IMG/VR virus record: IMGVR_UViG_3300028030_000047
Location: 1-28,161 of that record
Length of the DNA: 28,161 nucleotides
From: a virus
Strand: one strand, 5' to 3'
Below are positions 1-28,161 of this stretch, in pieces. Numbering within the stretch: position 1 is the stretch's first letter; every line of letters begins with the position of its first letter. The notes beneath the pieces were generated by a model. The model had not been told where the DNA came from and ran no database searches. It saw only the letters and a list, made by a program, of their open reading frames with translations. A program made the position numbers and the translations under genes.

Positions 1-96
1 AAGCTTGTGAAACTTTGCTATATGCACAGCAGAGTTTCTTATGGCTGCGTTTAGTTTGTCCATCTGTCTTGCACTTATAGTTGTGTTTACTCTTTG
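1..96. repeat. Terminal inverted repeat, left arm
   Basis: Bases 1-96 match the reverse complement of 28066-28161 at 94 of 96 positions, with differences at bases 1 and 33. Identity stops abruptly at base 96. Both copies encode the same part of two antirepressor genes, ending in the residues AVHIAKFHKL. Both reading frames are still open at the window edges, so this looks like an assembly break inside a repeat rather than a true molecular end. Confidence 0.9.
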
Positions 97-564
97 CTGT
101 GCCTGAACAAATTGCGTAGTTTGAGCACTTTTCATATCTGTTACAAGAGTAGTCAGCATCTTCATAGACTCAATCATCATCTCGTTTTGTTTTTGCTGTG
201 CATTCATAAATTCCACAAACATTGCACCTGTACCACCACCTTGCAACATCTCTTTTTCAACTGCAATGAAATAACTTCTTACTTCTTTACCCTTTGGAGT
301 ACGTGAAGCCATTGAGATGTGCTTTGCTGCATCAGTTGTTATGATGTAGTCAATACGATTTTGACCAGTTCTTGAAAGCTCCCCTTTTTGGGCGAGCTTA
401 ATAAAATCAACATTTTCATCAAGACCTAAAGTATTGATTTGATTTTTTATCCAACTTGAAAAGTCTTTTTTAATTTCCAATGTTTTATGTAGCTCTCTTG
501 CATCTACTGCGTTTAACTCTTGAGCACCTATAACTCTCTTTTCTATCTTAATCAACTCTTTCAT
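1..564 (-). CDS. AntA/AntB-type antirepressor 1 (3' end cut off by window edge)
   Basis: The minus-strand frame opens with ATG at 564 and stays open for 188 codons to base 1, so the C-terminus is missing. A good ribosome site (AAAAAGGAGA) lies just upstream of the start. The N-terminal half (about residues 10-110) resembles AntA/AntB antirepressor domains: NAVDARELHKTLEIKKDFSSWI, DYIITTDAAKHISMAS and KGKEVRSYFIAVEK segments are typical. The C-terminal part is a helical QNEMM-rich linker followed by a segment shared almost exactly with the gene at 27586. Antirepressors of this type inactivate phage repressors and trigger lytic growth; that role here is inferred from the family and from the S24 repressor at 2665. 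It is divergent from the HTH gene at 722 and shares a control region with it. Confidence 0.85.
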   Translation of the reverse strand, partial: MKELIKIEKRVIGAQELNAVDARELHKTLEIKKDFSSWIKNQINTLGLDENVDFIKLAQKGELSRTGQNRIDYIITTDAAKHISMASRTPKGKEVRSYFIAVEKEMLQGGGTGAMFVEFMNAQQKQNEMMIESMKMLTTLVTDMKSAQTTQFVQAQQRVNTTISARQMDKLNAAIRNSAVHIAKFHKL

Positions 565-589
565 GAGTTCTCCTTTTTGTTTAGTAAGT

Positions 590-606
590 GTTTCTTATTC
601 GAAACC
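590..606. promoter_or_regulatory. Operator-like site O1 (GTTTCTTATTCGAAACC)
   Basis: This 17-bp sequence occurs twice, identically, in the 157-bp gap between antirepressor 1 and the HTH gene at 722 (590-606 and 656-672). It is an imperfect dyad with GTTTC and GAAAC arms. An inverted half copy (ATAAGAAAC, 627-635) lies between the two full copies, next to a further TTATGC/GCATAA dyad (609-630). This copy sits 26 bp upstream of the antirepressor 1 start, where a bound protein would block that gene. The HTH protein at 722 or the S24 repressor are the obvious candidates to bind it. Confidence 0.6.
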
Positions 607-655
607 TCTTATGCTGAAAGTATGGCATAAGAAACCTTAAAGTAACTTTTAATAA

Positions 656-672
656 GTTTCTTATTCGAAACC
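656..672. promoter_or_regulatory. Operator-like site O2 (second identical copy)
   Basis: This is an exact copy of the 17 bp at 590-606, offset by 66 bp in the same orientation. It lies about 15 bp upstream of the -35-like hexamer of the rightward promoter for the HTH gene at 722. That position would suit activation or cooperative looping with O1 as well as repression. Confidence 0.6.
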
Positions 673-686
673 AATAAGTAGCAAAA

Positions 687-715
687 GAACTCTATAAGAA
701 AACTTTTAATACAAT
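687..715 (+). promoter_or_regulatory. Candidate promoter of the HTH gene at 722
   Basis: A TACAAT -10 box at 710-715 lies 17 bp after GAACTC (687-692). Transcription would begin near 721-722, on or next to the ATG at 722, and there is no ribosome site upstream of that ATG. A leaderless message is therefore likely if this promoter is the real one. Confidence 0.4.
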
Positions 716-721
716 AAACTT

Positions 722-928
722 ATGAAAGAAATACAATATAAAGATATAGCTGAATATACAGGCAAAAGTATCAACACAATAAAAGGGTGGAAGGTAAAGT
801 TTCCTGCACTATTAGAACTTGTGAAGCTCGGAGCGTTCTGCAAAAAAAATAACATTACGATGGAGATGATAAAAAGCTGCATCGAGATCAAAAAGATGGC
901 TACACAACAAGAGGAGACGAACAAATGA
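722..928 (+). CDS. Small helix-turn-helix DNA-binding protein
   Basis: This 68-residue protein has a compact HTH in its N-terminal half: YKDIAEYTGKSINTIKGWK gives two short helices with a polar recognition helix (SINTIKGWK). An FPALLELVKLGAF helix follows, then a charged tail. The layout resembles small regulators found beside mobile-element and phage genes in Campylobacterota; I do not know a named family. It is divergent from antirepressor 1 across the repeated operators at 590-672, so it is a natural candidate to bind them, perhaps in a Cro-like role. Its stop overlaps the next start (ATGA at 925), so the two genes are translationally coupled. No Shine-Dalgarno sequence precedes the ATG. 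Confidence 0.75.
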   Translation: MKEIQYKDIAEYTGKSINTIKGWKVKFPALLELVKLGAFCKKNNITMEMIKSCIEIKKMATQQEETNK

Positions 929-1293
929 TAAAAAATATACTTCTAGCAGCACTCATCAGTGCCTCTGCACTTAATGCTGCTGAAACAAAGCCACAATGCG
1001 CAAGACCTCTCAAACCTACATCGTTCGATGATAACAGAGCTATTCAAAACTACAATGATGATGTACACAGATACCAAGCCTGTATGAATGACTTCATACG
1101 AGAACACAAGGCTATTATTGACCGTGAGAGAAGAATAGTTAATGATGCAGTCAATGAATGGAACAACTTTGCCTCTGGCACATCTTCACACAACAAACGC
1201 AGCTCTGTATCAGCTCATACAGGCTCAACAGACGGACACCACACAGTTGACAATTCAGACCCTACAATGTTCTACAAAAACCTCAAGTTCTAA
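925..1293 (+). CDS. Small exported (periplasmic) protein
   Basis: The 122-residue product begins with a clear Sec signal peptide (MIKNILLAALISASALNAA, cleavage probably after residue 19). The mature part has two cysteines, C25 and C53, flanking a PLKPTSFDD segment and a helical region; they could form one disulphide in the periplasm. The C-terminus is Ser/His/Thr-rich and looks disordered. The pattern Cys-x-Arg-Pro-x-x-Pro, then Tyr-x-x-Cys, recalls small periplasmic proteins of unknown function seen in other proteobacteria; that is only a resemblance. The ribosome site GAGGAGA lies inside the upstream gene. Production from a lysogeny-region operon suggests a role in the lysogen's envelope, which is inference. 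Confidence 0.7.
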   Translation: MIKNILLAALISASALNAAETKPQCARPLKPTSFDDNRAIQNYNDDVHRYQACMNDFIREHKAIIDRERRIVNDAVNEWNNFASGTSSHNKRSSVSAHTGSTDGHHTVDNSDPTMFYKNLKF

Positions 1294-1312
1294 ACACAAA
1301 ATCTCTAAAAAG

Positions 1313-1363
1313 CTTCAAGTAGTACTAATGTACCTCTTGAAGTATAAAAAGCCCTTGTAGGGC
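1313..1363. terminator. Hairpin pair after the exported-protein gene; leftward terminator
   Basis: CTTCAAG (1313-1319) pairs with CTTGAAG (1336-1342), with inner GTAC/GTAC arms. A second hairpin, GCCCT-TGT-AGGGC, spans 1351-1363. On the minus strand this second stem is followed directly by five T (bases 1350-1346), the form of an intrinsic terminator for leftward transcription. For rightward transcription from 722-1293 no U-run follows either stem, so termination in that direction is uncertain. Confidence 0.5.
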
Positions 1364-1805
1364 ATTATACACGCCTCTTTTTCCATCAAAAAGCCCTAAA
1401 ACATCCACTTTCCAACAAACCACCGCACGTCTGCACACCTCCAACACCACCACAAAAATCGCCGCCTTTTGATTTTTTTTTGGCTTATTTTCGTATGTTC
1501 CGATTTTTCAAGAAATGTCAAAATATTTTTTGAGATGCTAATATACAAAATTATTGAATTGGATGCCAAAGGTATTGAATTGCCGTAAAAATGCTCATTT
1601 TTACGAAGGAAGTGGGGAGTGAGATGCGGGGGTGGATATTTTTTCGGAAGTTTCGGGTTTCGGAGTGGGCTGAAATGTTGTGAATTTGTGGAAAAGTTGT
1701 GATGATCTCTTTGAAAATCTTGCAAAAGTGCGTGATTTTAGCCTGAACCTTAATCGGTTTTAGGGCTTTTTTCCTGCACTTGGCTGTGTTTGACTTCTTT
1801 TTAGA
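1364..1805. other. Non-coding segment bounded by a 15-bp perfect inverted repeat
   Basis: AAAAAGCCCTAAAAC at 1388-1402 is matched exactly in reverse complement at 1757-1771. Between the arms are a perfect 9-bp hairpin (CGTAAAAAT, loop GCTC, 1584-1605) and two TATTGAATTG direct repeats at 1552 and 1573, 21 bp apart. The only sizeable frame here (minus strand, 1725-1396) has no recognisable domain, a Trp/Cys/Arg cluster unlike the neighbouring proteins and no clear ribosome site, so I treat the segment as non-coding. Confidence 0.45.
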
Positions 1806-2081
1806 TGACTTTTTTATACTTTTGTTGGTACTAATTTTATGACAAGATGGTGCAAATAAGAGATTATTTTTGCTTCAATGTGAGGAGCAAGTGCGTGAAC
1901 CTACCAAGAAATGTATCGTTTTTCCGGTGCAGGGAAGACGATAGTCATGTTCTTACAGGCATAAGCAGAGTGTGTAAACCTTTTTCCTGATGTCGGGAAG
2001 ATGGTACGAGTGAAGTGGTGTAGCCTTGAAAATGTGTGGAATTTGTCATAAATATATTATTTTATTTATTTTAATATATTT
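1806..2081 (+). ncRNA. Candidate structured RNA gene with its promoter
   Basis: TGACTT (1806-1811) and TACTAA (1829-1834) are 17 bp apart, the same geometry as the late promoters elsewhere in the window. Downstream are two similar hairpin-forming segments: TTTTTCC...GGGAAGA around 1920 and again around 1980, each preceded by a GTGaAACCT-like block. An AT-only stem (AAATATATTA at 2050-2059, TAATATATTT at 2072-2081) followed by T-rich sequence could end the transcript, giving an RNA of roughly 240 nt. It matches no RNA family that I recognise, and no plausible protein is encoded. Confidence 0.25.
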
Positions 2082-2215
2082 TTATAGCCCTATTTTTAGG
2101 ACTTTGGTGCATCTGTTTAAGTTTCAGAGCCTTATTCGCTACTTTTTGGCTTAAGGTTTGGCAGATAAATGTGAGTGAGTTGATGTGCTGGCTCTCATGC
2201 AATGATGCGTGTTGT

Positions 2216-2320
2216 GGTGTGTTATACCTGTATTGTTGTGTAACTGCTGATATGTTAGAGAGATAATGTCTGCGCTGTGATGTGTACCGCCTGCATTGTT
2301 GTGCTACTTTGCGATATGTC
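2216..2320. repeat. Degenerate tandem repeat, two copies
   Basis: The segments 2216-2256 and 2279-2320 are imperfect copies sharing ATTGTTGTG and GATATGT blocks. They fall in one minus-strand frame (2328-2071, 85 codons) where the copies read as VAQQCRRYTSQ and AVTQQYRYNTPQ. That frame has no visible ribosome site or known domain. It may be a small repetitive protein or simply repetitive DNA. Confidence 0.45.
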
Positions 2321-2408
2321 GGCGACATTGATGTCGTCTAGTCGGGGAGATAAGCTACTGCCGTGCCGTGCTGCCATCTTTTTTTGGTTTTTGGTTTTGG
2401 TGGAATGA

Positions 2409-2452
2409 GGGGGGGGGGTGTTCCCCAAGTAGTCGCTCTGTCTGAGCTACTT
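2409..2452. other. G10 homopolymer and adjoining hairpin
   Basis: Ten consecutive G occupy 2409-2418. They are followed by TTCCCC, which can pair back on the G run. A separate stem AAGTAG (2427-2432) / CTACTT (2447-2452) follows. No gene crosses the G tract. Such tracts are slippery in Campylobacterota, but nothing here shows that this one varies. Confidence 0.5.
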
Positions 2453-2539
2453 ATGAGAGAATTGCCCTATGACTGTATGAATTTTACTTCATTTTCCCTA
2501 GTGAAAAAGGCTTAAAAAATTTTCAAATGGCGGCGAACT

Positions 2540-2660
2540 TTATACACTTTTAGGTAGTAACATTTCTTTACGGCAGTAGTAACGTTTCTTTACGAGGGGT
2601 AGTAACGTTTCTTTACACAATAATAATACCAATACATAACTATAATAAAAAAAAAGAGAA
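2540..2660. other. Candidate iteron-type replication origin
   Basis: A DnaA-box-like 9-mer (TTATACACT, 2540-2548, one mismatch to TTATNCACA) is followed by three direct repeats at 2554, 2576 and 2599 and then by a very AT-rich stretch (2617-2656). This order, box, repeats at about two helical turns, AT-rich zone, is that of iteron origins. No Rep-type initiator of a known plasmid family is seen; the wHTH/DnaT-like protein at 3652 is the best candidate initiator. The alternative is a repressor operator cluster, but the repeats lie 3' of the repressor gene rather than at its promoter. Confidence 0.4.
2554..2616. repeat. Three iteron-like direct repeats
   Basis: The repeats are GTAGTAACATTTCTTTACG (2554-2572), GTAGTAACGTTTCTTTACG (2576-2594) and GTAGTAACGTTTCTTTAC (2599-2616). 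They differ at one internal base and start 22 and 23 bp apart, so they lie on the same face of the helix. I saw no further copies elsewhere in the window. Confidence 0.8.
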
Positions 2661-2664
2661 TTGC

Positions 2665-3339
2665 TTATAATTTCTTAATTTGCATATCTGCAATCACTTT
2701 CCCAATAATCCTAAAATCTTCACAATCTGCCATAATATCAGGATAGATGTCATTGTCTGATTTTAAGAGTATCTCTTTTGTTTTGTGCTGTTTAAATATT
2801 CTCTTTACATAGACCTCTTCACAGAGATAGACTACATAGATCTTCCCGTCTATAACATCAGTACTATTTTTATCTATGAAAATTACATCCTCGTCGTTGA
2901 TGGTTGGCTGCATAGAGTTACCTGTTACACGTATGGCTTCTATGCTGTCAGAGAGTGTCGGGAGCATATCTTTTGAGATGGTTATATTTGTAGGAGTACA
3001 GTCTCCATTTTCACATCCATGTCCTGCTGATGCTTGTATATCTTTGTAAAACGGAATAGATATACTGTTGTCAAGCAGTGCAGCAGTTTGAGTGATGTCA
3101 TCAAGAAGCAGATCACTTTCAGAGCGTATCATCTCCCCTACTCCATCTTCGAGCCACTCTTTAGATACCTTAAAATGTTTGGCAAGTTTGAGAGAGTCTT
3201 TTGGTTTGATGTTCTTTGTATTACCCTGTTCCCATGCCTTTACCTTGCCGTCAGAGCATCCAAGTACATCTGCTAATTGCTCCTGCGTTACTCCAAACTT
3301 TTTGCGAAGAAGTTTTATTCTATCTGCTAAATTTTCCAT
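2665..3339 (-). CDS. CI/LexA-like phage repressor (HTH plus S24 peptidase)
   Basis: The 224-residue protein has an N-terminal XRE-type HTH (about residues 5-65: TQEQLADVLGCSDGKVKAWEQ) and a C-terminal LexA-like autoprotease fold. The cleavage site is probably Ala105-Gly106 (QASAGHG). The catalytic serine is S142 in GNSMQPTI and the lysine is K179 in VYVKRI. Family members hold lytic promoters off in the lysogen and self-cleave on RecA activation or respond to antirepressors; both apply by inference. It is transcribed leftward and faces the plus-strand replication operon across 3340-3464. The two antirepressor genes at the window ends are its likely antagonists. Confidence 0.92.
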   Translation of the reverse strand: MENLADRIKLLRKKFGVTQEQLADVLGCSDGKVKAWEQGNTKNIKPKDSLKLAKHFKVSKEWLEDGVGEMIRSESDLLLDDITQTAALLDNSISIPFYKDIQASAGHGCENGDCTPTNITISKDMLPTLSDSIEAIRVTGNSMQPTINDEDVIFIDKNSTDVIDGKIYVVYLCEEVYVKRIFKQHKTKEILLKSDNDIYPDIMADCEDFRIIGKVIADMQIKKL

Positions 3340-22522: not shown

Positions 22523-24394
22523 ATGTTTGAAGATACAACTACACTCATTGAGTGGCTCAGAGAGTCGGCGTACCACTTTAAAAAGACAAAAGAACTCTCT
22601 CAAAAAGCAAGAGAGTATTACAATGGAGACCAACTTGACAGCTTTATAAAGAATGTGCTGGCAAATCGTGGGCAGCCAGAACACTACGAAAACCAAATAG
22701 CAAAGCACAACAACTCTATACTGGGATTTAAAAAGAACAGAGAGGTAGAGATAAAGCTCTTTGGACGACAGCAGCAAGACAGAGCAAGTGCAGATGTTCT
22801 CAACGCAATTTTAAAAGCCATAACACAGGTAAGCAGCTACACAACAGAAGTTGATGCTCTTGATGACACACTGAGTCTTGAGGGTGTGGCAGTTGCAGAG
22901 CTGAGTGTCACGGCTACGGGAGAGTATGACGAGTTTGGCAGAGAGCATAAAGACCTTGACATCAAGCAAGTGCCACCCGATGAGATATACTTAGACCCTT
23001 TTTCACGCGGGAAAAACTACAATGATGATGCACGCTACCTTACACGCTGCTTTTGGATGGACGCTGATGATCTACCAAAGCTCGGCTTTGATGAGAGCAA
23101 GACAAAAGAGCTTACAAATGTGAACTTTGCAAGCTCTATGGTAGAAGATGACATACAGACAGACAAGAGTTTTAGAAAAAGAGTACTCCTTGCATACACA
23201 TGGTACAGAAAGTTTGATGCAAAGAGTGGACGCGACAAGTTCTACTACTGCTTTTGGAGTGACAACACTATTCTCTTGCAAAACGAGTCTCCTTTTTTGG
23301 CAGAGGGCTTTCCTTATGAAGTTGAGTTTTTGCACAGAGACTTTAAAGGCGACATAAAGTACTGGGGATTGTACAAAGACATCATTCCTTTACAGGACTC
23401 CATAAACTACTCGAAGCTGCGTTTACAGAATATGCTTGCAAACAACAAGACACTCATTAACAAAGGCGCACTTATAGATGAGGATATAGAACAGTTCAAC
23501 GAAGAGTACTCGCTCGATGATGCTACGGTTATGGTAGAGGACATCAACGGTATTAAAGAGGTCAAGCAGAATGTGCAGATACAGCAGATACTCAACATCA
23601 TCATAGACTCACGCAATCAGATAAGCGAACTCTTAAACGCAAACAAAGAGATGCTCGGTGTGGCAAACAACAGAATGAGCGGTGTAGGACAGGAGCAGCG
23701 CATACAGACTGGACTTGTAGGACTAAGCCGTTTTATGGATAAAGCGGACAACCTGCAAAAGAAGATCATAGAGAAATCTATAAAATTTGTGCAGCAGTAC
23801 TATGACACGCAAAGAGTCATAAGCATCATAGATGAAGACTATGCGCAGAACTACATCACTATGAACGAAGCAGCGCGCAATGAAAAGGGAGAGTATGACT
23901 TTGACGTTATGAGTGACGGGAGTGTCGTACCCGTTGCGCGCAATACTATAAGTGTCTCAAAGTACGACCTGATATATACGGCAAAACCGAAGTCGAACTC
24001 TATGACAAGTGAGCGCCTAAAACAAAACGTAGAGCTGCTTAAAGTGTTGCAAAGCACAGAGCCAGACCTTGTGAAGTACTTAATACCTGACATACTCCGT
24101 GACAGCGACTCGCCAAGTGCTACGAAGATACGCCAGATAATAGAGCAGCGTGACACAGAGGCGCAAAACTCTCCGCAGGCACAAGCGCAGGCACAGCAGG
24201 AGCAGGAGATAACACGGCTCAATATGCTGCTCAAACAGTCTCAAGCGAATTTGAACGAGGCAAAAGCAAAAGCGATGATAGACAAAAACAAGATAGACCT
24301 GCAAAAAGCCTACAGCAACTCGCTTATAGCAAAAGAGAGTGTACAGGCAAAGAGAGATAAGAACCAACTTGATGCAATGAGGAGAGTGAACTAA
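22523..24394 (+). CDS. P22-like portal protein
   Basis: The 623-residue protein fits the P22-like portal family in length and pattern: a helical N-terminus (QKAREYYNGDQLD), a conserved VPPDEIYLDPFSRGK region near 153, a WGLYKDIIPLQDSINYSKLRLQNML segment near 281, and a long C-terminal Gln/Ala-rich helix (540-623) that would form the portal barrel. It makes the DNA channel at one head vertex and binds TerL. There is no obvious ribosome site and the start lies 5 bases after the previous stop, so translation is probably coupled. Confidence 0.85.
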   Translation: MFEDTTTLIEWLRESAYHFKKTKELSQKAREYYNGDQLDSFIKNVLANRGQPEHYENQIAKHNNSILGFKKNREVEIKLFGRQQQDRASADVLNAILKAITQVSSYTTEVDALDDTLSLEGVAVAELSVTATGEYDEFGREHKDLDIKQVPPDEIYLDPFSRGKNYNDDARYLTRCFWMDADDLPKLGFDESKTKELTNVNFASSMVEDDIQTDKSFRKRVLLAYTWYRKFDAKSGRDKFYYCFWSDNTILLQNESPFLAEGFPYEVEFLHRDFKGDIKYWGLYKDIIPLQDSINYSKLRLQNMLANNKTLINKGALIDEDIEQFNEEYSLDDATVMVEDINGIKEVKQNVQIQQILNIIIDSRNQISELLNANKEMLGVANNRMSGVGQEQRIQTGLVGLSRFMDKADNLQKKIIEKSIKFVQQYYDTQRVISIIDEDYAQNYITMNEAARNEKGEYDFDVMSDGSVVPVARNTISVSKYDLIYTAKPKSNSMTSERLKQNVELLKVLQSTEPDLVKYLIPDILRDSDSPSATKIRQIIEQRDTEAQNSPQAQAQAQQEQEITRLNMLLKQSQANLNEAKAKAMIDKNKIDLQKAYSNSLIAKESVQAKRDKNQLDAMRRVN

Positions 24395-25500
24395 TGGGAT
24401 GGTATGACGCATTTAAAGGACACCCTGAGCGGGTAAACACACTGGCAATAACAAGCAATGACGGAAGTGCGGCAAAGCATTTCGGGGATGCTTTTAAAGA
24501 GATAGGCGCATCCATACAGGATGCCGATACGCAAAGGGCAAAAGAGAACCTCCTCAACTCTCAAGCAGCATACCAAACGAAAAAAGATGCACAGCTCACA
24601 CACTCAATGCAGCAGGCAACACAGCAAGAAGAGCAGAAGAAGATAGACGATGCCTTTAAAAAGGACTTTAATTTTAACAGTGGCGATACGGACTATCAAA
24701 AAGCACTGCTTGAGTTTGAAAAACCAGACGGCACGTTTGATAGTGATGTAAGCAACAGCGCACTTGAGTATGCAAACAAGAAGATAACTGATGATGAGAG
24801 CGCCGCACAGACAAAGTTTAACGATGAAGCAGTAGAGCAGTCTGTTACAGGCGGGTACAAAGACATCGCTGCGTTTACCAAAGCAAACCCTACCCTTGTG
24901 CAAAATGCAGACGGCGCGACAATGGTACATATAGACAAATACTTTAGAGACAAAGACACAAGCCTCGCAGCACTCAAGTCAAAAGAGAAAGATATAAAAC
25001 AGGCAACAGCCCTTGAGAAGATGCAGGCGAAGCTTGTTAAGGCGAATGCAGGGAAAACGAACAAACCATTTAGCATAAATGAGCAAAAAATTGTGGACAA
25101 CATTCTCGCAAATGAGAGCTACAAACTTGATACAAACGGAAAAGTAATCATAGACGACAATGGACAAAAAGAGCTTATAGATGGAATGACACCGGAGAAA
25201 TACAACTTTTTGAGAGAGAGCATCTTTCAAAAGATGTCTGAACCGAACTCAGATAAGAACTATGTCAAGATAAAAGAGAAAGCTTTACAGGAGTGGAACA
25301 ACAGCAAACTCGGTAAAGCCGAAAAAGCAGCACTAGAAAAACAGCAAGCAGAAGAGAACCTAAGCCTTTGGGATAAAATAGTAGGCAATGAACCTACTCT
25401 GCCTCAAACGCAGCAACAGGTAGCTACAAAAGAAGAGAACAATGCTACTCCACAAACGCAGCAGGGAGAAGCATCATGGAAGAAGTTTCTGCCTAAATAA
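24394..25500 (+). CDS. Probable ejection (internal virion) protein
   Basis: The 368-residue protein starts on the portal stop (TAATG). It is helical, rich in Ala, Gln, Lys and Asp, with coiled-coil-prone stretches and a disordered Gln/Thr-rich C-terminus ending ASWKKFLPK. A place after the portal and such composition are usual for DNA-ejection proteins of podoviruses. No enzyme motif was found. Its stop codon is directly adjacent to the stop of the minus-strand gene at 25501. Confidence 0.55.
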   Translation: MGWYDAFKGHPERVNTLAITSNDGSAAKHFGDAFKEIGASIQDADTQRAKENLLNSQAAYQTKKDAQLTHSMQQATQQEEQKKIDDAFKKDFNFNSGDTDYQKALLEFEKPDGTFDSDVSNSALEYANKKITDDESAAQTKFNDEAVEQSVTGGYKDIAAFTKANPTLVQNADGATMVHIDKYFRDKDTSLAALKSKEKDIKQATALEKMQAKLVKANAGKTNKPFSINEQKIVDNILANESYKLDTNGKVIIDDNGQKELIDGMTPEKYNFLRESIFQKMSEPNSDKNYVKIKEKALQEWNNSKLGKAEKAALEKQQAEENLSLWDKIVGNEPTLPQTQQQVATKEENNATPQTQQGEASWKKFLPK

Positions 25501-26013
25501 CTAATAAGTTTGAAATAGATAGTTTATTGACACTCCAATATCTCTATAGGCTGTAGCATCTCCTCTTGTTGGGGCATAGAGTCCTATGATGATGCTAGGC
25601 TCTATTTCAAATTGTTTGTTTATAGGGTATGTAAAACCACCTTTAACTCTAAAAACAATTCCCTCCTCGTTTGGAGCGTACGCTTCTTGATCTTGTTGGT
25701 ATGTACGTGTGTATTTATTATAATATAGCCCTCCACCTAAATACGGAGTAAAGTTACTCTGCTCTAAGTTAAACAGATATGCAGCATCAAAACCTATGAC
25801 ATGTTCATAATCCATAGATAGGCTTACTCTATAGCTATCAAAATATTTCCCCATTACAAAATATTTTGATACTGTTTCAAGTGTGTTTTCTGAGAGACTG
25901 CCCTCTGCTCCAGAATGTGTTTTTACAACTCCGTATCTTGCACCTATAAATACATTCTCTTTTGCATACACGCTAAACGCAAACATTAACAACAATAAAA
26001 CAATTTTTTTCAT
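25501..26013 (-). CDS. Outer-membrane beta-barrel protein
   Basis: I chose the ATG at 26013 because MKKIVLLLLMFAFSVYAK is a complete signal peptide (cleavage after residue 17) and AAAGGG lies upstream; the longer in-frame extension would bury it. The mature protein (170 residues in total) has alternating strands with aromatic girdles (FTPYLGGGLYYNKY, FEIEPSIIIGLY) and ends in FQTY, as in small porin-like barrels. A prophage gene for an outer-membrane protein usually changes host surface properties, such as superinfection exclusion; that is inference. It is AT-rich compared with the structural genes. Confidence 0.75.
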   Translation of the reverse strand: MKKIVLLLLMFAFSVYAKENVFIGARYGVVKTHSGAEGSLSENTLETVSKYFVMGKYFDSYRVSLSMDYEHVIGFDAAYLFNLEQSNFTPYLGGGLYYNKYTRTYQQDQEAYAPNEEGIVFRVKGGFTYPINKQFEIEPSIIIGLYAPTRGDATAYRDIGVSINYLFQTY

Positions 26014-26074
26014 ACTAAAACCCTTTTTTTGATTTAGCAGGTATGTTAGCAAATATAAAATAAAATACAAATGT

Positions 26075-26986
26075 TTAGTTGTTTGCAGGTCTAAATCCTT
26101 TACCAACAGCTTCTTTCTCAGACTCAAGATAGATATCCCCTTTTTTTATACTCATTTTTATCCTATCATAATTGGCATTACATGGAAGATGGTAAATCAT
26201 ACTCTCTTTTTTGCATTTAATGAGTGGGTAATCTAAAGAGTACGGTTTTACAATATGGACAATATTATGCATAGATAAAACTACTCTTGCTCTATCATCT
26301 AGGTTATCATTACTTGTTATAAGCATTTTGTGAACTTCCACATCTGGATGTTCAAGCACATACGTTGAAATTGTTCCAAGAAGTTGGGTAATAGTGTTTT
26401 CATGTATTTGATGATGCTGCGCATAATTTTTACACTGAATAATAATATGCTTGTTGTTTTCTTTAACAATCAGGTCTATACCTTTATCTCTTACTCCTCT
26501 GTAAATACCATTATAAACAACGTCAAAACCAGCTTGTTCATAAGTATATCCTACCTGCCTCTCAAACCTTCGTCCAACTTCCTCTTTTTGTTCCTCTTTT
26601 GTTCCTCGTATAGAATGATTACGGTAATAATCAATACAATTTTTAATACGAAAATCTCTATTCTTCATGTTTTTAAAAAATATATTTTCTTGTATTTGTT
26701 TTTCTATCGCCTCTGCTTTCTTCTTTTCTTTTTCAATATTTTTATATACAGTTTTTCTAATTTCACGCTCAATACATTTATACTCATCTCGATTTTGAAA
26801 TGTTAGATTATTTTCTATGCAATATTTCACATAGCTATAAGAACATTTTTCACATTTAAAAGGGAAATAATAAGCATATTGTATCCCATGTTCACAAGGC
26901 TTAGTGAGCATTTTATAAGCTTTTTCATCTTCTCTTTCTATATCTCTTTTGAGCGTAGTAAGTTCGGTTGCTTTGCTTCTGTTCAT
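26075..26986 (-). CDS. Zinc-ribbon protein with Mrr-like PD-(D/E)XK nuclease domain
   Basis: The 303-residue protein has a possible zinc-binding cluster near the N-terminus (C31, H33, C45, C48). A charged helical linker follows, then a restriction-endonuclease-like core: E142 in GRRFERQVG, D171 in DKGIDLIV and Q184-K186 in IIIQCKNY. This matches Mrr-type nucleases in type IV and defence systems. The first 62 bases overlap the gene at 26925, and an ATG at 26911 is an alternative start that avoids the overlap. It would cut DNA, perhaps of invading phages; target unknown. Sequence is AT-rich, indicating transfer. Confidence 0.75.
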   Translation of the reverse strand: MNRSKATELTTLKRDIEREDEKAYKMLTKPCEHGIQYAYYFPFKCEKCSYSYVKYCIENNLTFQNRDEYKCIEREIRKTVYKNIEKEKKKAEAIEKQIQENIFFKNMKNRDFRIKNCIDYYRNHSIRGTKEEQKEEVGRRFERQVGYTYEQAGFDVVYNGIYRGVRDKGIDLIVKENNKHIIIQCKNYAQHHQIHENTITQLLGTISTYVLEHPDVEVHKMLITSNDNLDDRARVVLSMHNIVHIVKPYSLDYPLIKCKKESMIYHLPCNANYDRIKMSIKKGDIYLESEKEAVGKGFRPANN

Positions 26987-27194
26987 AATCTTTTCTAAAC
27001 TCCTTTACAGAATCAGGAATATATTCCACTGTCATGTATTTTAAATGATCTTCTCTTTTTTTTCTTAATTCATCTACTTCTTTTTGCAACGCAGGTAACT
27101 CTTTTTTTGCTTTTTTTTCATCAAAATAATTACCAATTTTATCTATTAAGTATATAAATAAAAAGAAACCTCCTACAAAAAGTAATTCCTGCAC
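26925..27194 (-). CDS. Small membrane protein with basic coiled-coil tail
   Basis: The GTG start at 27194 follows the preceding stop directly, with GAGGG inside the HTH gene as the ribosome site. The 89-residue product has one membrane segment (about 4-22, LLFVGGFFLFIYLIDKIG), then a Lys/Glu helix, and a strongly basic end (QKRYRKRR). It is tightly linked to the nuclease, whose start lies inside it. It could anchor or control the nuclease; this is inference. Confidence 0.65.
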   Translation of the reverse strand: MQELLFVGGFFLFIYLIDKIGNYFDEKKAKKELPALQKEVDELRKKREDHLKYMTVEYIPDSVKEFRKDYEQKQSNRTYYAQKRYRKRR

Positions 27195-27407
27195 TTACTT
27201 ACCCTCAATCTCAAAAACTTTGTTTTTTACATCTTCATAGCTTTTGGCTTTGATGTAATTTTCTAGCCATGATTTTACCCAATATGGAACATCTTTACTA
27301 CTGCCCCAATTATTTACAGATGGATACGATATGCTTAAGAGTCCACAGAACTCTTTTTTTGTTAAATTTGCTTTTTTTAATAAATTGTTAAATTCTTCTC
27401 TATTCAT
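27195..27407 (-). CDS. HTH protein heading the accessory cassette
   Basis: The 70-residue product has an XRE-like HTH: LTKKEFCGLLSISYPSVNNW, then a helical PYWVKSWLENYI and a basic tail. It is first in a four-gene leftward cassette. A 24-bp dyad lies 23 bases upstream of its start. It may control its own promoter and the divergent antirepressor 2 gene. Its ORF is AT-rich. Confidence 0.7.
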   Translation of the reverse strand: MNREEFNNLLKKANLTKKEFCGLLSISYPSVNNWGSSKDVPYWVKSWLENYIKAKSYEDVKNKVFEIEGK

Positions 27408-27585
27408 CTTTCCAAACCCCTAAAATACTGCATTAACCCTAAAAGGATAATGCTAAACAGTAACCTTTTTATTACATAATTATACAATAATGTACTCAAA
27501 GTATTGTTGTTTTCTTGACTTAAGTAATCTAAATATGATAGAATTTTATAATTAAATATCCAAATGGTTATAAAAAGGACTAGAA
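27408..27585. promoter_or_regulatory. Divergent control region with two 24-bp dyads
   Basis: Dyad A (27430-27453) has GCATTA/TAATGC arms with inner CC/GG pairs, 9 of 12 positions symmetric. Dyad B (27484-27507) has ACAATA/TATTGT arms, 8 of 12 symmetric. They begin 54 bp apart. Dyad A would overlap the leftward promoter of the HTH gene. No copy of the operator at 590-672 is present, so the two antirepressors seem to be controlled differently. Confidence 0.5.
27515..27544 (+). promoter_or_regulatory. Promoter of antirepressor 2
   Basis: TTGACT (27515-27520) and TAGAAT (27539-27544) are 18 bp apart. Transcription would start near 27551, leaving a leader with AAAAAGGA before the ATG at 27586. 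Confidence 0.45.
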
Positions 27586-28161
27586 ATGAAAAAACTAATT
27601 AAGATAGAAAAGAGAGTTATAGGCGCAGAGGAGCTAAACGCAGTGAACGCAAGAGAATTATGCGGAGAACTCGGAATAAAGAAACAGTATTCCAGTTGGA
27701 TTACTGCACAAATAGACCGTGCAGGTCTTCGTGAAAATATTGATTACATAGTAGTATCTCAAAAAGTAGAAGCCGGCAAAGGTGTATCTACTCGAAAAGA
27801 GTACTACTTAACTACAGATGCAAGTAAACATATAGCTATGATGAGTCAAGGTCAAAAAGCTAAAGAGGTTCGTGACTACTTCATAGCAGTTGAAAAAGCT
27901 ATGAAGCAAGGAAGCAGCGACTCAAACGCAATGATGCCTATGTTCGTGGAGTTTATGAACGCACAGCAAAAACAAAATGAGATGATGGCTGAGTCTATGA
28001 AGCTTCTCACTTCACTTGTAAGTGAGATGAAAAACACTCAAGCAACACAGCTCTTACAAAAACCACAAAGAGTAAACACAACTATAAGTGCAAGACAGAT
28101 GGACAAACTAAACGCAGCCATAAGAAACGCTGCTGTGCATATAGCAAAGTTTCACAAGCTC
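27586..28161 (+). CDS. AntA/AntB-type antirepressor 2 (3' end cut off by window edge)
   Basis: The frame runs from ATG at 27586 to the window end for 192 codons without a stop. Residues 10-110 show the same AntA/AntB pattern as antirepressor 1 (NAVNARELCGELGIKKQYSSWI, YYLTTDASKHIAMMSQ, AKEVRDYFIAVEKAM). The domain differs clearly from antirepressor 1, but the last 32 codons are almost identical. It probably counteracts a repressor by binding it; with a different N-terminal domain it may respond to another partner or signal. The control region is unlike that of antirepressor 1. Confidence 0.85.
   Translation, partial: MKKLIKIEKRVIGAEELNAVNARELCGELGIKKQYSSWITAQIDRAGLRENIDYIVVSQKVEAGKGVSTRKEYYLTTDASKHIAMMSQGQKAKEVRDYFIAVEKAMKQGSSDSNAMMPMFVEFMNAQQKQNEMMAESMKLLTSLVSEMKNTQATQLLQKPQRVNTTISARQMDKLNAAIRNAAVHIAKFHKL
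28066..28161. repeat. Terminal inverted repeat, right arm
   Basis: This is the reverse complement of bases 1-96 with two differences. See the left arm. In a circular molecule the two arms would face each other at the meeting point of the convergent antirepressors. Confidence 0.9.

Follow-up and report, generated by a model that had tools for sequence, protein, structure and literature searches.

Two exclusion systems acting at phage DNA entry come closest to the locus described here. SNIPE has its N-terminus outside, one helix and a cytoplasmic nuclease, and it cuts DNA during injection; SNIPE lacking the helix is toxic, as anchoring is needed to spare host DNA (PMC13190303). SieA of phage P22 is an inner-membrane protein expressed from the prophage, which prevents related phages from injecting their DNA (PMC10883804). 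Its gene is part of the immI region, for which the P22 sequence (AF217253) gives the order 16 > <sieA orf59 mnt< >arc ant> 9. Zorya and Kiwa set a membrane component and a DNA-acting component against incoming phage DNA (PMC12904381), and in the prophage and satellite hotspots of the P2/P4-like type, a phage locus of fixed position carries anti-phage cargo that varies (PMC9122126). Here, we compare with these systems a four-gene cassette of the IMG/VR virus record IMGVR_UViG_3300028030_000047, the whole 28,161 bases of which were analysed and are called the window.

The cassette consists of four ORFs, all leftward (-), which are located between virion genes and diverge from an antA antirepressor gene. 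An earlier sequence-only reading had named them as HTH, membrane protein, nuclease and barrel genes. They encode a small HTH regulator of 70 amino acids (27407-27195), a single-pass membrane protein of 89 amino acids with a GTG start and a basic coiled-coil tail (27194-26925), a nuclease of 303 amino acids (26986-26075) and a putative outer-membrane beta-barrel protein of 170 amino acids with a signal peptide (25501-26013). The frames and the ribosome sites are closely interlocked: the stop codon of the HTH gene leads directly into the GTG of the membrane gene, upstream of which GAGG is found, and the nuclease ATG, preceded by AAGGAG, overlaps the membrane ORF, as had been noticed before, by 62 nt. 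The cassette was rightly described as AT-rich, with a GC content of 30.9% compared to 37-46% in most 1-kb blocks of the window. Two features had been missed, the C-terminal "sunset" domain of the nuclease and the divergent antirepressor at 27586-28161 (+). A search of the PADLOC defence families gave no convincing match, only weak generic ones (3.8e-4 for the best in the window), in agreement with the earlier statement that no named system has this combination.

We propose, in a reading that we consider about evenly balanced, that the cassette represents half of an immI-like island in which an Mnt-like HTH protein is combined with a membrane-tethered nuclease cutting the DNA of superinfecting phages and with the barrel as passenger. 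The cassette would be the lysogen-expressed half of this regulatory island, inserted in the late (virion) operon, and the HTH protein would repress the divergent antirepressor gene and head the leftward operon. Together, the membrane protein and the zinc-ribbon Mrr-sunset nuclease would amount to a recurrent type of inner-membrane-anchored nuclease in split form, the catalytic domain of which would face the cytoplasm and cut the DNA of superinfecting phages at entry, with anchoring keeping the nuclease off the host nucleoid. Either the zinc ribbon or the coiled coil might sense the entering phage, and the barrel would be a separate outer-membrane passenger. If true, inner-membrane cutting of phage DNA would have been reached with an unrelated nuclease family under prophage repressor control, and the cassette would represent a new superinfection-exclusion family in bacteria with little-studied phage defences, further members of which might be found by searching beside antirepressors behind a small HTH gene.

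The nuclease is composed of a zinc ribbon (CxH..CxxC, residues ~31-48), a coiled coil, an Mrr_cat domain (residues 138-248) and the sunset domain (residues 256-301). Mrr_cat (PF04471) was detected by Pfam scan over residues 138-239 with 4.8e-9 and 36.8 bits versus a curated cut-off of 21, and the sunset domain (NF051437) with 1.1e-6 and 28.6 bits versus a cut-off of 27; relatives scored just under the NF051437 cut-off or gave no match, yet are alignable through the sunset module. The catalytic residues E142, D171 and Q184-K186 (with C185 between) are placed as predicted by the sequence-only reading and are invariant in alignments of six and seven rows. The motifs E142-R143, D167-x-G-x-D171 and Q184-C185-K186 and much of the C-terminal P..KC...I/LYHLP...YD block are maintained in the relatives, whether these are encoded by phages, plasmids or chromosomes. 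The zinc site named there (C-x-H...C-x2-C) is likewise in place and recurs in two Campylobacterota loci, L060 and L061; it is missing from the related phage L003 and from the other relatives, and the ribbon is thus optional. An AlphaFold model based on the seven-row alignment was used, a three-sequence model with a pLDDT of 46 having been set aside. Its overall pLDDT is 74.6; values of 82-94 prevail in residues 170-300, and the loop at 161-169 is weak. In a structure search, residues 137-251 superposed on EndoMS/NucS (Z 12.2, 2.5 Å, 105 residues) and residues 137-288 on AF1548 (Z 11.3), and because of these matches a PD-(D/E)XK fold of the modelled protein is well supported. Judged by these domains and residues, the protein is an Mrr-type PD-(D/E)XK enzyme of predicted nuclease activity.

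The catalytic domain with its D..QxK motif is common to the Mrr (Mrr_cat) type IV restriction endonucleases, to which the window protein adds the zinc ribbon, coiled coil, sunset domain and membrane link; the N-terminal Mrr DNA-recognition domain was not detected in it by Pfam scan. A sequence search against solved structures gave no significant match, no relatives were found among named phages, and none was present in 398 Pseudomonadota genomes at E 1e-25, a set without positive control. The family is recurrent in prophages; we found no description of it, and a literature search for "sunset domain" returned no relevant paper.

The closest folds, EndoMS/NucS and Hjc, are those of DNA-repair nucleases, and many chromosomal membrane-anchored Mrr proteins are without known role, so that the anchored nuclease might instead serve recombination, repair or packaging of the phage's own DNA as a resolvase-like or EndoMS-like enzyme. 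We regard this as unlikely, as the nuclease gene, part of a cassette of reversed orientation with a repressor gene at its head, lies apart from the replication genes and is missing from sister phages, and as its relatives adjoin lysogeny repressors or sit on plasmids.

The tethering on which the proposed entry nuclease depends finds its support in the relatives. For the 89-amino-acid membrane protein (26925..27194, -) sequence homologues were not detected, and its pairing with the nuclease therefore rests on position and on the architecture of the relatives. We propose it as an anchor with a putative N-out/C-in orientation according to the positive-inside rule, transmembrane helices having been called by hydropathy and topology by the charge rule only. 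In a related phage (L003/L002), the nuclease, 54% identical to that of the window, carries its own N-terminal transmembrane helix, and copies on Hymenobacter plasmids show the same fused layout. Fused helix-nuclease proteins were also found in five IMG/VR viral contigs (L112, L113, L115, L116 and L117) and in a Campylobacterota genome (L062). On a Campylobacterota chromosome (L061), an S24 repressor gene is followed by a separate membrane gene, which directly precedes a zinc-ribbon Mrr-sunset nuclease gene, the gene order of the window thus recurring in an independent copy, and in another genome of this group (L060) a CI-like repressor gene is followed by a helix coding sequence just upstream of, and partly in, the nuclease frame. 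The earlier suggestion that membrane protein and nuclease may work together as a membrane-linked enzyme is thus borne out in architecture, nuclease and membrane segment occurring together in L003, the Hymenobacter plasmid and L061.

Altogether, a helix was present in all 11 independent Mrr-sunset cases, the window counted, from Campylobacterota, Bacteroidota plasmids and prophages: eight times in the same ORF and three times immediately upstream. An N-terminal helix occurs in 17% of 399 comparable ORFs, which gives a binomial value of 8e-5 for eight out of 11. A repressor or HTH gene was located directly upstream on the same strand in seven of the 11. The tethered-nuclease architecture is therefore well supported, and in the window, membrane protein and nuclease would form a complex. 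However, 17 out of 22 Campylobacterota Mrr proteins without sunset domain are also membrane-anchored, and anchoring, as predicted from these sequences, is a trait of a group wider than Mrr-sunset. Anchoring need not mean phage defence for this reason, and the anti-phage role of the cassette, including its target and the protection it would confer, is putative. We do not favour a frameshift joining the membrane ORF of the window to that of the nuclease, since a stop at 27004 closes the nuclease frame upstream and this ORF has a start and an AAGGAG of its own.

On paper, the pair would work like SNIPE with unrelated domains, and it is not a SNIPE. In common they would have a single-pass N-terminal anchor, a nuclease on the cytoplasmic side (predicted for the window by the charge rule only) and the cutting of DNA at entry. 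SNIPE unites DUF4041 and GIY-YIG in a single protein, whereas the window combines Mrr PD-(D/E)XK with the sunset domain; Pfam scans gave no match to GIY-YIG in the nuclease and none to DUF4041 in either the membrane protein or the nuclease. Unlike SNIPE, the window system has its proposed anchor in a separate, adjacent gene (fused in eight relatives), is headed by a repressor gene and is phage-borne. With Zorya and Kiwa the cassette would share the pairing of a membrane component with a DNA-acting one, and according to PADLOC, ZorD of Zorya is a helicase that includes an Mrr-like nuclease; in contrast, the motor proteins, the helicase and KwaA/KwaB of these systems are without homologues in the window.

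The first cassette gene (27195..27407, -) matches the PHROG families phrog_8898 (2e-19) and phrog_4779, a transcriptional regulator (2.6e-4). The antirepressor gene (27586..28161, +), which is cut by the record end, matches PF08346 AntA (3.3e-19) and phrog_5817, anti-repressor Ant (1.7e-29). An antirepressor is the divergent partner in at least 19 of the 23 HTH loci tested in viral contigs, and by analogy we propose that the HTH protein is an Mnt-like repressor. Compared by gene content, the HTH gene marks a wider hotspot with variable cargo, as the same HTH family precedes an SNase in a sister phage (L015), a PemK-like toxin (L029), a PBECR3 protein scoring below the PBECR3 cut-off (L008) and numerous small proteins of the membrane or periplasm. 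In one Campylobacterota family, 78 of 151 genomes gave matches to the HTH protein, a large share of them weak. The P2/P4-like hotspots likewise carry variable cargo at a fixed locus; they belong to different phages, whereas the present one adjoins an antirepressor and begins with a leader hairpin and the HTH gene. More broadly, and only tentatively, TM-Mrr-sunset proteins may be undescribed repressor-controlled, inner-membrane-tethered nucleases acting at phage DNA entry in prophages, plasmids and chromosomes of several phyla, which in Campylobacterota phages would be among the cargoes of a defence hotspot linked to antirepressors, many genes of which start with the conserved leader hairpin.

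The toxin-like PemK and PBECR3 genes that follow members of this HTH family, the HTH-headed operon and the toxicity of SNIPE once its anchor is removed (PMC13190303) might also point to an abortive-infection or toxin module, in which a membrane-held nuclease controlled by the HTH or the membrane protein attacks the DNA of the host once infection has freed or activated it. This is improbable as well: the HTH gene also occurs with unrelated cargo and is thus not a dedicated antitoxin gene, and anchor and nuclease are one polypeptide in most relatives, which leaves nothing releasable.

Three further arrangements were observed at HTH loci. Beside the antirepressor of another phage, an HTH-headed set (L014:6313-10080) comprises a C5 cytosine methylase, an HD-CE protein and an ORC-CDC6-like ATPase and is, by its predicted domains, a candidate defence system. 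L003 carries two tandem HTH-headed units (L003:4089-6561), HTH-TM-TM/zinc and HTH-TM-nuclease, as if added one by one. A short tyrosine recombinase with the motif RAKKPILKKE, which may move the island, is encoded beside HTH cassettes at L003:2361-2954, L087:2841-3192 and L037:4313-4960.

The insertion is bordered by the last gene of the virion module, encoding the "MGWYDAF" protein (24394..25500, +). In the sister phages (L040, L042, L043, L045/46, L047-49 and L050), no cassette follows this gene; after 66-134 bp, a giant gene begins, with more than 2,300 codons where the contig is long enough. These empty sites are consistent with the cassette being prophage cargo, as had been suggested. The window, L003 and L015 have an island at this place, with the leftward cassette next to the "MGWYDAF" gene and then the rightward antirepressor, and in L003 the island continues with a tyrosine-recombinase gene and an ORF that by inspection resembles the start of the giant gene. 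Like the window and L003, immI of P22 comprises a leftward regulator with exclusion gene(s) and a divergent rightward antirepressor between late/virion genes. The likeness is one of gene order, exclusion by the window cassette being predicted; SieA is a membrane protein without nuclease, and the window is without an arc-like gene. Mnt and Arc of P22 belong to a DNA-binding family different from that predicted for the HTH protein.

The claim that the four genes form one unit holds for their position and not for their content, which is composite. This composite content, the AT-rich composition and the patchy presence would be expected of a neutral or decaying passenger cassette of real genes that brings the phage no current benefit. 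Such a state is very unlikely, as the catalytic, zinc and sunset residues are intact, the identity to L003 by codon position (0.77/0.86/0.56) follows the pattern of purifying selection, and frames and ribosome sites have stayed coupled.

The barrel gene (25501..26013, -) scores 0.0053 and 17.4 bits with PF13505 versus a curated cut-off of 28.7, its relative in L087 reaching 31.8. A start at TTG 26127, inside the nuclease gene, was rejected in favour of the more likely ATG 26013, where the signal peptide begins. The L087 cassette, HTH-TM-barrel, is without nuclease, and its barrel is 36% identical (1e-21) to that of the window; other relatives are ordinary outer-membrane proteins whose chromosomal genes have no such company. 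By these comparisons, the barrel is predicted to be an ordinary outer-membrane passenger, separate from the nuclease, and the idea that it may block adsorption is not upheld. Outer-membrane proteins are known from lysogenic conversion by other phages, lambda Lom being an example. A role of the barrel as the selected function, masking a receptor while the nuclease is directed at plasmids or further mobile DNA, would fit this and the L087 cassette and is most improbable given that the barrel relatives are ordinary chromosomal proteins.

Concerning expression of the island, inspection of the upstream regions revealed a TATAAT at 27479..27484 (-) as putative -10 of the HTH promoter, located similarly in relatives and missing from the list of the consensus promoter scan. 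For the antirepressor, TTGACT-18-TAGAAT at 27515..27544 (+), with 10 of 12 consensus positions and TG before the second hexamer, is a putative promoter; the scan as a whole was at chance level. The intergenic regions have in common a TATAAT-type block on the HTH side and a TTGACA-like one on the side of ant. Between the divergent promoters of L003, L010, L014, L015, L025, L027 and L028, near-identical 14-mers occur at a near-constant spacing of 31-32 nt, as operators would, and are putative operator-like elements; operator repeats in the window were not above shuffles.

A hairpin, GCATTATCCTTTTAGGGTTAATGC, is located at 27430..27453 (-), 23 nt before the HTH start. It has a stem of ~10 bp and the loop CTTTTAG, the stem sequence being variable with compensatory pair changes. 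With a covariance model built from 13 copies (R1), the window, itself a training sequence, scored 54.9 bits (E 1.4e-10). In 537 kb, all matches with E<0.01 were at cassette gene starts or immediately upstream, including the untrained L030:5948, L027:5892 and L027:6212. Copies were found in L003 (4042-4067, 4803-4830 and 5220-5247), L015, L017, L021, L025, L027, L028 and L030; they are present in a subset of HTH loci only, and as a second cassette gene is preceded by a copy too, the hairpin is not only an HTH leader. Pattern scans of the viral contigs gave, beyond the known loci, only matches in unrelated genes, and an Rfam search of the leader region gave no match. A terminator was rejected: no T-run follows, and by inspection the outer arms of many copies have their T-rich side 5′ and their A-rich side 3′, opposite to what a terminator shows.

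The host is inferred from relatives to be a Campylobacterota-type bacterium, and the phage is presumed to form lysogens, in which the cassette would be expressed. No integrase was seen in the 28,161-base record, which is a fragment. Its ends (1-120 and 28042-28161) carry a nearly identical inverted repeat of ~95 nt, and both are 3′ ends of antA genes, 1-564 (-) and 27586-28161 (+). The assembly probably broke at these antA end repeats, leaving a 28-kb fragment, and the rest of the island is consequently unseen. The left end (1-3339) represents a second antirepressor region, in which the antA gene (-) is accompanied by a gene for a small periplasmic protein (925-1293, +), whose family recurs downstream of the HTH gene in L017, L019 and L020, and by a CI/S24-type repressor gene (2665-3339, -).
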